IMG/VR virus record: IMGVR_UViG_3300014848_000022
Span: 1-55,444 of that record
Reading direction: 5' to 3' (one strand)
DNA: 55,444 nucleotides
DNA from: a virus
The notes under the pieces are model-generated. The model was not told the origin of the DNA. It made no database searches and saw nothing but the letters and a program-made list of their open reading frames with translations. Positions 3,450 to 43,677 of this stretch are shown one piece after another. The position numbers and the translations under genes are program-made. Position 1 is the stretch's first letter; every line of letters starts with the position of its first letter.

Positions 3450-4799
3450 TCAGTTAAGCGCGATAGAGCGACGCCCGCGTTCGAGCATGGTCTTCAGGCC
3501 GACGCGAGAACCGGTATCGTTGTATGATTGATCGTATCCGGCCCATGCCGCCCGAAGCGATGCAAGGTCGGAGATTGCGGTCCCGCGCACAGTTCCCCAT
3601 GTTCCAGAGCCGCTCACCAGATACGAGTTCTGGTCGTTGATGCAGCCGCCCGCGTCGCCAGTCGCGCTGTCCCACGAGATCAGCGTGCCGATGGGCGCAT
3701 GAAACCGGCAATTTCGGACAGTGTTGTTCGCGACCTTCGAGTTGTTCTCGACGTTGATGCCGACACGCAGGGCCGGAGAAGTGGCATAGCGGTTATAGAC
3801 ATCCACATCCTCGACAAGGACGTTCTGGCAGGCCTTGAGATACAAACCGGACAAGCACCCGCCATAGACGGTCGCACGGGTGACGCGAACGCCGGTCGCA
3901 TTCTTGATCACGAGGCCCTGACCGTTCGATGTGTTGTTGCCGCCGAAGAATGAGCAGTCGATGACCGTAACGTTCGAGCACCCGGCGCCGATAACGGAAG
4001 CGTGGCCGGTCAACGCGACAGCCTTGACCCGCGTGATGATGCCGGTCGTGGTCTGGCCGGTCGAAGCATCTTCGCCGATCTGCATGCATGTCCCGGCGAC
4101 GGACGAGCCGTAGGCGCACAGGTCAAGTTCGAAGAGCTTGAAATCCAGCACGCCCTTCATGCGGAACGGAAAATAGCCGACGTGGAATTTGCACTGGACG
4201 AATGACAGGTCAGACACGAAACCAAGCTGGCTGTCGAAATTCACGCCAGCGATGGGATACGCCCCGATCTGTCGGATTTCACAGCCCTGCCAGAGGATTT
4301 TGCTGATCGTGTAGGTGCCCCCAGAGCCGGAGTCCCACACGCTCTGCATGGCGGTATTGGTCCCGCCAGATTGGCCGATCACATCCCAGCGGCAGCCGAT
4401 AAACCGGATGTTTGAAGTAGTCGTGTTGAGGAACCGCATGACAGACGTTGCCGTAGCCGAGTTGTTGCGGAACACGATGTTTCTGAACTGGATGAACGAG
4501 CAGGCGCCGACTTGGACCGAATAGTTCCCGCTGGTCCCGGTGATGACGACACTGCCCGGCGCCTGCGGATCGAGTAAGCTGTAATTCGGTTCGGGCTCGA
4601 CGAACACGAAGTTTGCGAAGTTCTGGGTCAGGTAGAGGTAGCCAGAGCCAGAGTTTTCGGCATAGGTTCCCCCTCCCATGTAGATCACATCGCCAGCGGC
4701 TGCCACAGAGAGTGCCTTGACGAGCGTTGCATAGGGCGCGCCGGTTGCACCGGTCCCGGTCGTGTCATTGCCGGTCGTGCGGACGTAAATCTCAGCCAT
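3450..4799 (-). CDS. Right-handed beta-helix tail spike
   Basis: A 449-residue protein. It begins with IYVRTTGND followed by a Gly/Thr-rich linker and DVIYMGGGTY, the usual opening of pectate-lyase-like beta-helix proteins. The body is a long series of short Val/Ile/Asn-rich turns (for example NVTVIDCSFFGG, GVRVTRATVYGG, NVLVEDVDVYN), the repeat pattern of a parallel beta-helix. Such proteins form trimeric spikes that bind or cut surface polysaccharide. It shares a start/stop junction with the 100-residue protein upstream, which may connect it to the fibre. Confidence 0.75.
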   Translation of the reverse strand: MAEIYVRTTGNDTTGTGATGAPYATLVKALSVAAAGDVIYMGGGTYAENSGSGYLYLTQNFANFVFVEPEPNYSLLDPQAPGSVVITGTSGNYSVQVGACSFIQFRNIVFRNNSATATSVMRFLNTTTSNIRFIGCRWDVIGQSGGTNTAMQSVWDSGSGGTYTISKILWQGCEIRQIGAYPIAGVNFDSQLGFVSDLSFVQCKFHVGYFPFRMKGVLDFKLFELDLCAYGSSVAGTCMQIGEDASTGQTTTGIITRVKAVALTGHASVIGAGCSNVTVIDCSFFGGNNTSNGQGLVIKNATGVRVTRATVYGGCLSGLYLKACQNVLVEDVDVYNRYATSPALRVGINVENNSKVANNTVRNCRFHAPIGTLISWDSATGDAGGCINDQNSYLVSGSGTWGTVRGTAISDLASLRAAWAGYDQSYNDTGSRVGLKTMLERGRRSIALN

Positions 4800-41227: not shown

Positions 41228-41247
41228 CAGGCGAGGAAGGTGATCAC
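41017..41247 (-). CDS. Small membrane protein downstream of cro, antisense overlap
   Basis: A 76-residue protein whose start overlaps the Cro-like stop (ATGA). It has one N-terminal membrane segment (ITFLACQTVLLAITVILLW). Its last 70 codons overlap the plus-strand gene on the opposite strand. Translational coupling and the membrane segment argue for a real gene, but the C-terminal half is less convincing. Confidence 0.45.
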   Translation of the reverse strand: MITFLACQTVLLAITVILLWRRVAWLEEMVIRISQPSISGVESLEDWPTTYGRMENGNLVVDEASMRQCRGRAGPA

Positions 41248-41468
41248 GCCGCCCGCTCCGTGGGGGTGGGGCGATCCGAAACAGGGGTGAGGAAGTCAGC
41301 GGGCAGGGCAACGCCGCGTGAACTGGCCACGCCTGCCAACGCAAACCGCCACCGCCACGGAATGGAGCGGCCAGCCAAGCACCAATTCGCAACGGAACCC
41401 GGCGAGGTGTTGAGTGCCTCAGCTACCGCTTTCGCGCCGCCGAGCTCTTTGATCAGTTCCTTGGACAT
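41244..41468 (-). CDS. Cro-like repressor
   Basis: A 74-residue protein with a helix-turn-helix near the start (IKELGGAKAVAEALNTSPGS, then VANWCLAGRSIPWRWRFAL), the shape of small YdaS/Cro-type regulators. It is the first gene of the leftward operon, divergent from the CI-like gene, with TCACA-N3-TGTGA operators between. It should favour the lytic path. Confidence 0.75.
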   Translation of the reverse strand: MSKELIKELGGAKAVAEALNTSPGSVANWCLAGRSIPWRWRFALAGVASSRGVALPADFLTPVSDRPTPTERAA

Positions 41469-41477
41469 GCCCCAATG

Positions 41478-41559
41478 TCACAGATTGTGAGTTTCAAGGC
41501 AAGCGTAAATTGTCACAGCCTGTGCGTGGAAGATTGGCCGCATTTACCGCAAAATGTGA
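41478..41559. promoter_or_regulatory. Right-operator region (three 13-bp sites, 34-35 bp apart)
   Basis: TCACAGATTGTGA at 41478-41490, TCACAGCCTGTGC at 41513-41525, and a weaker CCGCAAAATGTGA at 41547-41559. The first two match the TCACA-N3-TGTGA sites at 43172 and 43207. They lie between the Cro-like and CI-like genes and probably control both. I cannot place the -10 elements with confidence. Confidence 0.6.
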
Positions 41560-41561
41560 GC

Positions 41562-41891
41562 ATGGATCAGGACGACAAGAATGGCGGCCCCAACTACTTG
41601 CGAGCATGGCGGGAATTTCACCACATGACGCAGGCAGAGCTTGCTGCGAAGGTCGGCACGAATGCCAACATGATCGGCTACCTTGAAGACGGGCAGCGCG
41701 CACTTTCGCTGAAATGGCTGCGCCGCCTAGCCCCGGCGCTCAAGACGCGGCCTTTGTTTCTTGGGGAAATTGACCCCCGAAAGGCCGACTCGTTGACCAT
41801 GGAACTTGCCATGGCGGTAACAGATGATGATCGCCCACAGGTGAATACGATCCTTGAGACATTCGTAAAGAAGAACGGCACCAACGGCTAA
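41562..41891 (+). CDS. CI-like phage repressor (XRE helix-turn-helix)
   Basis: A 109-residue protein. Residues 12-60 are a standard XRE HTH (YLRAWREFHHMTQAELAAKV, then MIGYLEDGQRALSLKWLRRLA). There is no LexA-type peptidase domain, so induction would not use RecA-assisted self-cleavage. It is the first plus-strand gene, divergent from the Cro-like gene, the position of a lysogeny repressor. The start at 41562 is chosen over an upstream frame to 41475 because that part covers the operators. Confidence 0.8.
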   Translation: MDQDDKNGGPNYLRAWREFHHMTQAELAAKVGTNANMIGYLEDGQRALSLKWLRRLAPALKTRPLFLGEIDPRKADSLTMELAMAVTDDDRPQVNTILETFVKKNGTNG

Positions 41892-41906
41892 ACACCAGGG
41901 GGCGTT

Positions 41907-42443
41907 ATGGGGCGATGGATGATTGCGGGTATAGCGCTCGCGTTGGTGGGGTGTGGTGACCAAAAGCCAGAAAATACTGCGCAGGAGGTGAGTGTTAATC
42001 GTGGAGCGGCCGAGAGCGGCGGTCGATCTTCCAATCTTCCGGTATCGTCACCCCAGGAGGCTGTGGAGGCATCAGCAGTTGTCTCTGCTTACAGGGGAGA
42101 TTGGGTACCGGTCGACCAAAGCAGTGCTGGCTACACGCTATACGTGGATCGGGCCTCGATTTACCCAATCTCATCCACCCGCAAGCGTGCGGATGTGGGT
42201 TACGCCGACGATTCTGGGCGAACGCTAATTCGGATCGGCTTTCACTGCGATGAAAAAATGGCTGATCGTATGGATGATGGGTTAGGCCAGGTGAGTACTG
42301 ATTTGCCCGACCTAGTCGGTGATCTTCCGCGCGAAGAACCTCATCTTTCCGCGCGGGATTACGTTTGCTTTGGAAAGCGCTCCAAGCCGGAGCGAGATAT
42401 GCCTGCGATCAAAGAAATTCCCGCAGTGGCGGATGGGGGATAG
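41907..42443 (+). CDS. Lipoprotein downstream of the repressor
   Basis: A 178-residue lipoprotein: signal peptide residues 1-15 with lipobox LVGC (Cys16). After a Ser/Pro-rich linker is a folded part (YRGDWVPVDQSSAGYTLYVD, DDSGRTLIRIGFHC). Being just after the repressor, it is likely expressed in the lysogen and may affect phage entry or the envelope. No family recognised. Confidence 0.6.
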   Translation: MGRWMIAGIALALVGCGDQKPENTAQEVSVNRGAAESGGRSSNLPVSSPQEAVEASAVVSAYRGDWVPVDQSSAGYTLYVDRASIYPISSTRKRADVGYADDSGRTLIRIGFHCDEKMADRMDDGLGQVSTDLPDLVGDLPREEPHLSARDYVCFGKRSKPERDMPAIKEIPAVADGG

Positions 42444-42446
42444 GCA

Positions 42447-42797
42447 ATGGCTGAGCAGCCAAAGCCCAGCGTTTACCTCGTCCAGTTTGCCTTGGCAGCG
42501 GGAACAGAGGAGCGGGCACGCGAAGGCGTCTATCGGCAGTTCGAGGCCGCCAATGCCGAGTTGTTTGGTGGCGAGCGCAACGTCGCGATGATGGGGGCGG
42601 CCGGCCTGTCGATCGCGATATTTGGAGTTAGCCGTCTGACCGCCCGCGAAATTCGGGACCGCTACGAACGAAAGGCTGCCCTGCGCCCGCACAATGTGCT
42701 GGTGGTCCAGATCGGCAGCGAAGTCGCAGAATACCATTGGAACAATCTCGGTTCATGGCTCAAGCGCCATACCGGAAGTTCAAGCCCGTTGCTCTGA
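42447..42797 (+). CDS. Small protein in the lysogenic operon
   Basis: A 116-residue protein, helical/beta mixed (SVYLVQFALAAGTEERAREG, REIRDRYERKAAL, LVVQIGSEVAEYHWNNL). It follows the lipoprotein by 3 bases and overlaps by 18 bases the convergent minus-strand gene. Function unknown. Confidence 0.55.
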   Translation: MAEQPKPSVYLVQFALAAGTEERAREGVYRQFEAANAELFGGERNVAMMGAAGLSIAIFGVSRLTAREIRDRYERKAALRPHNVLVVQIGSEVAEYHWNNLGSWLKRHTGSSSPLL

Positions 42798-43094
42798 TGC
42801 GTCGCCTTCCTTGCGAATTTCCGCCTCGCTGATACTCAGCTCATCAGCGAGGCAGGTGATGTCCGCACCTTCTTCGTGTGGCCAGCTCCAGACGTTGTAG
42901 CGCGCATGGCCAGTGGCTCCGTCGCTGAAAATGCGCTTGACCCGGACTTCAGCAGGCGCTGCCAAGATGATCGAAATCTGCCACATCTTCGTCGCCAGCC
43001 AAGCCAATGGGCCATGCGACAGCCAATGCGGCGGCACATTCTTGTAGATCCAGTATTCGAACCGGCGCCCGCGCGGCACTTTCACCTTGACCAT
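42780..43094 (-). CDS. Small protein between operator regions, unknown
   Basis: A 104-residue protein starting at 43094, where GGAGG lies just upstream. Aromatic-rich (RFEYWIYKNVPPHWLSHGPL, WLATKMWQISIILAA) with an acidic C-terminus. The leader contains the two left-operator sites, so the gene is probably controlled by the repressors; that fits an early regulator. Its family is not recognised. Confidence 0.55.
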   Translation of the reverse strand: MVKVKVPRGRRFEYWIYKNVPPHWLSHGPLAWLATKMWQISIILAAPAEVRVKRIFSDGATGHARYNVWSWPHEEGADITCLADELSISEAEIRKEGDASEQRA

Positions 43095-43171
43095 ACCACC
43101 TCCATCAGGGCGCCATTTGGCGTCCTTTTTTGCATGCGCAATCGATAGGTGAATCGCTTCAGGTCTGGCAA

Positions 43172-43219
43172 TCACAATCTGTGAATTTTTCCGCTTGACC
43201 GAATAATCACAATCTGTGA
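43172..43219. promoter_or_regulatory. Left-operator region (two 13-bp sites, 35 bp apart)
   Basis: TCACAATCTGTGA at 43172-43184 and again at 43207-43219, identical perfect half-site pairs, 35 bp apart as in the right-operator region. They lie between the divergent 42780-43094 gene and the rightward operon. TTGACC at 43195 and TTGTGA on the minus strand could be -35 elements. Confidence 0.6.
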
Positions 43220-43260
43220 GCATCTCTCCATAGCCGCACAACGCGGCGTGGAGACCGCAG

Positions 43261-43677
43261 ATGCCCATCGGCACGCACCTCGAAATTCCCGCCTGGCACC
43301 AGACCAGCGCCGCTCAGGCCGTCATCGCCAGCATTGCCCCCACCTCGATGCGCATCATCAAGCGCACGCGCGTTGTGGGGCCCGACTATTTCTCGTGGAC
43401 CTTTCCTGAGGAGCAACGCCGGGCGCTCGAAGCTCTGCGCGATGCCGCCGCGGCGAAGATCGTGGGCTTCACCTTCCGTGAGGCCGAGAACAACGACGAG
43501 CGCCGCGAATTCGTCTCGGTCTGGGGCCAGCTTCCCGATCTCGATGATGCCTTGGCGCCCCGCTTCGGCAACCCCGAGGCACTGGCTGCGGCGTGGTGCT
43601 TCCACGATGTCGATCACCTGAACCGCATCTGGCAGGCCGAATGCGCCCGCGCCGATGCCGCGCGGGAGGCCGCGTGA
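43261..43677 (+). CDS. First protein of the rightward operon, unknown
   Basis: A 138-residue protein with GGAG 7 bases before ATG. It contains THLEIPAWHQTSAAQAVIAS, FSWTFPEEQRRALEALRDAA, and EAENNDERREFVSVWGQLPD. It is first after the left operators. No function recognised. Confidence 0.55.
   Translation: MPIGTHLEIPAWHQTSAAQAVIASIAPTSMRIIKRTRVVGPDYFSWTFPEEQRRALEALRDAAAAKIVGFTFREAENNDERREFVSVWGQLPDLDDALAPRFGNPEALAAAWCFHDVDHLNRIWQAECARADAAREAA

Follow-up and report, generated by a model that had tools for sequence, protein, structure and literature searches.

The lysis-lysogeny switch of phage lambda is marked by the -42 position of its activating operator and a 24-bp operator spacing. Lambda cI has been described as leaderless, with its promoter PRM being activated from OR2 near the PRM -35 (PMC8630535). 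The same paper describes the PaaR2/YdaS switch of the cryptic prophage CP-933P, in which a small, leaderless repressor gene lies divergent from a YdaS-type gene, repeats are found in the 97-bp intergenic region and near PL, four GTTTAGTAA repeats of 18 bp at equal spacing serve as operators and the repressor sits with a toxin-antitoxin pair (PMC8630535).

Here we describe a locus of similar layout in an IMG/VR virus record, the whole of which (55,444 bases) we refer to as the window. Like lambda, it has divergent cI and cro genes, three candidate OR sites and an OL group beyond cI, replication genes on the PR side and recombination and integrase genes on the PL side, an OR2 that adjoins the presumed PRM -35 and a cI that may be leaderless. 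It differs from lambda in that its CI has only 109 aa and lacks the cleavable, oligomerizing C-terminal domain, its operators are 13-bp xxxCA-N3-TGxxx sites spaced by 35 and 34 bp instead of about 24, its OL has two sites, and its cro, too, seems to have its start at the ATG or close to it. The likeness to CP-933P is one of layout and extends to the divergence of a small repressor gene from a YdaS-type gene, the presumed leaderless start, the length of the intergenic region (93 bp in the window) and the repeats within it and near PL; points of difference are the operators and the toxin-antitoxin pair beside the CP-933P repressor. Judging from the sequence, we put the probability at roughly 0.88 that the sites in the window are OR1, OR2, OR3 and the two-site OL of a lambda-type lysis-lysogeny switch.

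Candidate operator sites around cro and cI

The motif TCACA-N3-TGTGA was scored across the window with 0 to 2 mismatches, and the expected counts were obtained from dinucleotide shuffles. The sites and their surroundings, named according to the proposed switch, are as follows.

41244-41468, minus strand: cro, a Cro-like protein of 74 aa with weak YdaS/P22_Cro similarity, first gene of the leftward early operon
41478-41490, minus strand: OR1, an exact operator, TCACAGATTGTGA (the cro strand reads TCACAATCTGTGA), covering the PR spacer and the upstream edge of the PR -10; relatives have a site of the same position and sequence class
41497-41502, minus strand: candidate PR -35, TTGCCT, between OR1 and OR2
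41513-41525, no strand: OR2, TCACAGCCTGTGC, one mismatch (a degenerate outer base), upstream of the PR -35
41547-41559, no strand: OR3, weak, CCGCAAAATGTGA, two mismatches (perfect in its right half, the left being degenerate), extending over the presumed PRM -10, with its centre at -9 of the cI start
41550-41555, plus strand: putative PRM -10, CAAAAT, at -12 to -7 of the cI ATG
41562-41891, plus strand: cI, a cI-like repressor of 109 aa (HTH_3/HTH_31)
41907-42443, plus strand: reading frame 3' of cI, putative lipoprotein with an LVGC that we take to be lipobox-like, probable lysogeny operon
42447-42797, plus strand: reading frame of 116 aa, probable lysogeny operon
43172-43184, plus strand: upstream OL site, TCACAATCTGTGA, no mismatch
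43195-43200, plus strand: candidate PL -35, TTGACC, between the two OL sites
43207-43219, plus strand: downstream OL site, TCACAATCTGTGA, no mismatch, between the PL -35 and -10
43225-43254, plus strand: inverted repeat with which the PL leader begins, taking in the first PL gene's Shine-Dalgarno-like GGAG
43261-43677, plus strand: reading frame that opens the rightward (PL) early operon

An earlier note on this DNA had described sites near cro and cI and two identical sites to their right, and both groups are present, as are the reading frames of the 109-residue repressor and the 74-residue Cro-like protein that it had named. The 93 bases between cro (41468, leftward) and cI (41562, rightward) hold three sites, and the pair at 43172 and 43207 stands upstream of the rightward operon; the minus-strand reading of the 41478 site is the same 13-mer as the two sites of this pair. 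Two features of a lambda-type switch were found: the repressor and cro genes diverge from a region that contains several operators, and a second operator group of the same sequence stands at the opposite early promoter. The centres, said to lie 34-35 bp apart at both places, were measured at 35 bp (OR1-OR2), 34 bp (OR2-OR3) and 35 bp (OL pair), and the cI start codon is 43 bp downstream of the centre of OR2.

Three exact sites were found in the window, compared to a mean of 0.02 in 100 dinucleotide shuffles, none of which reached three. Allowing up to one mismatch, four sites were observed with 1.0 expected, a count matched by 4 of the 100 shuffles, and allowing up to two, 12 were observed with 14.6 expected, which is the level of chance. 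The weak third site that had been proposed is therefore present but not significant by count, and only its placement at the OR3 position of the relatives described below speaks for it. The many equal matches elsewhere that the earlier note had named as counter-evidence did not turn up: the 55-kb record holds no exact match besides the three, and a 3.5-Mb genome with a copy of the phage holds exactly three, all inside that copy. This genome, a metagenome-assembled one assigned to Novosphingobium capsulatum, was identical to the window in 8,142 of the 8,142 bases fetched.

Among the surrounding genes, those of a RusA-like resolvase, a DnaB-like helicase and a primosomal protein lie on the leftward (PR) side, and those of a single-strand annealing protein, an exonuclease, an SSB, a Dda-like helicase and an integrase on the rightward (PL) side, with the terminase, portal and tape-measure proteins being encoded farther left. 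The -10 hexamers of PR and PL fit the sigma-70 consensus poorly.

As a separate observation, the GGAG is held by the 3' arm of the inverted repeat in the PL leader, and the predicted start falls inside its left arm, so the repeat may be either an RNA hairpin or a DNA site; a nut-like site is one candidate. In 46 loci (see below) the PL leader had a mean folding z of -2.1, with values below -1.5 in 28 of them, and the arms vary among loci, often remaining complementary. The distance from cI to OL is very variable in the relatives, as variable lysogeny cargo would give; in the window, such cargo may be the frame at 41907-42443.

The CI and Cro proteins

CI reaches the Pfam gathering scores of HTH_3 (27.2 versus 27 bits) and HTH_31 (26.2 versus 23 bits), and no peptidase domain was found among the Pfam or PHROG matches over its 109 residues. 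With HTH matches only over its 109 aa, it shows no cleavable S24/LexA-like C-terminal domain, and so appears to be a repressor that works like lambda CI and is not a member of the lambda CI family. In its predicted fold (mean pLDDT 79.7, with a weak C-terminus), residues 8-70 match the HTH domains of 434 repressor and Cro, P22 c2 and SinR-type proteins. VIA-align rows were used within the HTH only. The modelled match to 434 and P22 c2 is confined to the HTH domain, at 23-37% identity, and their operator differs. Like the modelled CI, the restriction controller C.Csp231I and SinR are small HTH proteins, comparable in length and helical at the C-terminus; unlike CI, they do not belong to phage switches, and the C-terminal parts align at a poor rmsd (about 5 A).

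The Cro-like protein remains below the Pfam cut-offs for YdaS (25.1 versus 30 bits) and P22_Cro (24.8 versus 30.2 bits). Its HTH type differs from that of the majority of relatives and is common to the loci L060 and L083, and in all three Cro is a non-orthologous replacement. Isolated phages gave no tblastn match to CI or Cro of the window, and a sequence search of solved structures gave no match to CI and only weak, chance-level matches to Cro, including 2hin (Repressor protein, Gp39; E 0.17), which is presumably N15 Cro.

The operator set is retained in most relatives

Relatives were sought in two ways. In a blind test, IMG/VR was scanned for two exact TCACA-N3-TGTGA sites 25-45 bases apart (start to start), yielding 38 contigs. 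A relative of the 109-aa CI is encoded by 15 of these; in 14 it lies in the fetched stretch (phmmer E < 1e-25), and the 15th, L014, is the same contig as L045, whose CI came up in the protein-first test. All 15 CI-bearing contigs had spacings of 32-36 bp, nine of them 34, and the spacings of the other 23 were scattered. In a protein-first test, an alignment of 15 CIs was used to retrieve CI relatives without regard to operators, giving 56 loci, one of which (L044) is the window's own phage; the two samples overlap, as the 14 CIs of the alignment besides that of the window stem from the pair search. At least one TCACA-N3-TGTGA site (up to one mismatch) was found at -400 to +3500 of the CI match in 24 of the 56 loci, and a single such match was found outside this range in all 56 together.

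Palindromes were also searched de novo, using 1,024 half-sites and 9 gap lengths and demanding a site upstream of cI and a downstream pair 30-37 bp apart, in 55 loci (the incomplete L096 was left out). An OR1-like site with a downstream pair, with at most one mismatch in all, was found in 43 of the 55 loci and in 0 of 550 dinucleotide shuffles; total mismatches were 0 in 37 loci, 1 in six, 2 in two and 3 in two, with no set in eight, and three shuffles reached the level of 2 mismatches. Four of the loci without a set had less than 1,400 bases available downstream (L044, L064, L065, L077) and four had more than 4,000 (L071, L076, L083, L094). L071, L076 and L083 have a partial set; L094, L097 and L098 have no set of this kind, the last two being at chance level.

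Among 298 genomes of the family and 396 of the order, five further CI relatives (L122-L126) were found with the operator class expected from their helices: TCACA in L122, CAACA-like in L123, TTGCA in L124 (weakly, with 3 mismatches in all) and TCGCA in L125 and L126. Since L122, L126 and L123 resemble the known members L045, L081 and L070, respectively, it is mainly L124 and L125 that give independent support; the Cro frames of L122 and L123 were available only from the key residue (M) onward. Six weaker HTH matches (L127-L132) showed no set, except for L129 at 2 mismatches, a level that shuffles also reach. The hosts are probably mostly sphingomonads, judging from the Novosphingobium capsulatum assembly and the matches in genomes of its family and order.

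Distant matches from the CIs of other members led to the Rhizobium phages L133, L134 and L135. The first, RHph_Y25 (MN988538), has a cro/cI layout like that of the window around its repressor C, and by inspection, upstream of repressor C at 4004, a 13-mer, ATACCAAAATGGC, repeated 35 bp apart with GCAAGC between; it differs from the window in this operator and in the C-terminal half of the repressor, which is S24-like by inspection. Its downstream set in the operator search had 2 mismatches, which is near chance, and no set of this kind was found in L134 and L135.

One layout, several operator classes

The layout was compared in 46 loci, namely the window and the 45 whose sets have no more than 2 mismatches in total. 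They share the operator frame xxxCA-N3-TGxxx and fall into the classes TCACA (20 loci), TCGCA (14), TTGCA (8), ATGCA (2), CAACA (1) and TTACA (1). The OL sites are spaced by 34 bp in 25 loci, 35 in 14, 32 in four, 33 in two and 36 in one, and a TTG-type -35 lies between them in 45 of 46, reading TTGAC in 33 and preceding the second site by 12 nt in 26. At PR, a TTG lies 12 nt from OR1 in 37 loci, OR1 and OR2 are 35 bp apart in 39, and in 44 the centre of OR2 precedes the cI start codon by exactly 43 bp; OR2 was sought only at +30 to +38 of OR1 and the in-frame cI start was taken nearest the expected place, so near-agreement comes easily, but exact agreement requires a start codon at that very base. 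The centre of OR3 is at -9 in 28 of the 46 loci, which puts it 34 bp from OR2, and in 12 others it is at -17, at a distance of 26 bp.

Together with a hexamer that resembles a -10 box and occupies positions -12 to -7, this fixed distance from OR2 to the start codon suggests that cI mRNA may be leaderless and activated from OR2 as in lambda. The layout also provides a search rule for the immunity regions of prophages, i.e., two sites 35 bp apart with CTTGAC between them, and candidate promoters and operators for those working on alphaproteobacteria.

CI and Cro co-vary with the operator class

Co-variation of Cro helices with operator half-sites has been described for lambdoid phages; our open-access literature search found no account of it. 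In 43 non-redundant CIs the column most informative on the operator was that of Tyr40 (normalised mutual information 0.78, next column 0.66), and for 40 majority-type Cro proteins the highest column value was 0.90 (next 0.59). The window and L060 (other Cro type), L055, L084, L070 (motif variant, M) and L078 (near copy) were left out of the Cro count. By operator class, these columns read:

CI Tyr40 column: TCACA, Y in 14 and M in 4; TTGCA, L in 8; TCGCA, D in 11 and E, L and H in 1 each; ATGCA, N in 1; TTACA, H in 1; CAACA, Y in 1
Cro top column: TCACA, M in 17; TTGCA, Q in 8; TCGCA, E in 12 and Q in 1; ATGCA, Q in 1; TTACA, L in 1

The main residues are Y or M in CI and M in Cro for TCACA, L and Q for TTGCA, and D or E and E for TCGCA. 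Among the Cro proteins outside the count, L084 has D (TCGCA), acidic like E, and exceptions are K in L055 (TCACA class) and A in place of M in L064, a locus outside the 46 with one site at 1 mismatch. According to the match ranges, Tyr40 of CI and its Cro counterpart, as placed in L075, L045 and L070, share Pfam HTH_3 position 28, which we take to be within the recognition helix of that fold. On the trees of Cro and CI the operator class switches 9 and 8 times, respectively, and in tree-aware sign tests the supported independent pairs, 3 for CI and 1 for Cro, were too few for significance.

The window may combine parts of different descent: without the recognition-helix columns its CI groups with six TTGCA members (support 100/99), and its recognition helix, all its operators and its replaced Cro are of the TCACA kind. 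A CI background of the TTGCA clade, with helix and operators of the TCACA class and a Cro of another type, suggests that recombination or replacement changed its specificity as a unit. On balance we lean slightly towards a phage family, mostly of sphingomonads, with a fixed lambda-like layout and a specificity that jumps among at least six classes, read out by the same HTH position in both proteins, of which the window would be a natural switch. If this is true, all parts of immunity specificity change together, which bears on an old question of phage immunity, namely by what route repressor, Cro and at least five operators can shift their specificity jointly; the family would be a natural series of the same geometry and at least six operator classes, with a candidate residue named for each protein and a class predictable from protein sequence. 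Switches of this kind are already known, but a sphingomonad family with such a series was not found in the literature searched, and in an open-access search no paper on the family or its operators was recognised.

Alternative explanations and proposed mechanism

That the palindromes arose by chance is practically out of the question. While sites with 2 mismatches do occur at chance level, the three exact sites against 0.02 expected and the sets in 43/55 relatives against 0/550 shuffles already refute chance for the four strong sites, and only the third OR site depends on its position. Only marginally better are the odds that a host regulator of the CRP or FNR type is what the sites serve: TGTGA and TCACA do look like CRP half-sites, but a CRP site is TGTGA-N6-TCACA, so that order and spacing are inverted here, the genome with the phage has no exact match outside it, and relatives with different repressor helices have different half-sites. 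It is harder to dismiss, though still rather unlikely, that CI alone uses all the sites and the YdaS/P22-Cro-like protein of the window binds a different or overlapping sequence, making the switch asymmetric. The Cro of the window being a non-orthologous replacement would fit this, as would PaaR2 and YdaS of CP-933P, which have overlapping, separately delimited footprints (PMC8630535); against it, cro keeps its divergent position, the OR features are all retained, and where relatives have the other type of Cro, this protein co-varies with the operators.

As for the spacing, it may reflect the cooperative binding that had been suggested, and we give even odds to its being set by promoter architecture, with one site in the spacer and -10 and another upstream of the -35, rather than by contacts between dimers. 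Promoter geometry alone could explain the spacing, since nearly all loci have a -35 between their paired sites, the OR2-OR3 distance takes two main values (34 bp in 28/46 and 26 bp in 12/46), and the Rhizobium phage with its unrelated operator and S24-like repressor also has a 35-bp pair, with GCAAGC between. Cooperative pairs, however, would equally give an OL spacing that stays within 32-36 bp and is 34-35 in 39 of 46 loci, and 34-35 bp is about 3.3 turns, one turn above the 2.3 of lambda.

Control of both early operons by one repressor, as originally proposed, remains the best reading, with geometry, operator sequence and recognition residues being conserved or co-varying in about 46 loci. 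For the phage of the window we infer binding, promoters, activation, the leaderless start and the role of Cro alike from sequence, and propose the following lambda-type switch. CI dimers on OR1 (in PR) and on the downstream OL site (in PL) would turn both early operons off, and OR2 and the upstream OL site, as the outer sites, would add occupancy. CI on OR2, centred 43 bp before the presumed leaderless cI start, would activate its own promoter, and OR3, lying over the PRM -10, would serve to shut this promoter off and limit the cI transcript. The Cro-like protein would compete for the same sites and bring about the opposite decision.

TCACA-N3-TGTGA sites beside other genes

Among the contigs of the pair scan, L010 (9447-9491), L039 (387-431) and L016 (7275-7317) each have two TCACA-N3-TGTGA sites at a spacing of 30-32 bp next to an HTH-like gene or genes of another kind; as these are not of the CI family, the operator may be common to different repressor families. 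Three lower-GC phage contigs (L011, L029, L031), which belong to the 23 without the CI family and were treated as unrelated, have three sites in a row with spacings of 25 and 29 bp. In L021 (663-6852), thirteen exact sites, mostly TCACAGCCTGTGA, are dispersed over 6 kb, and L041 and L008 carry several copies too.
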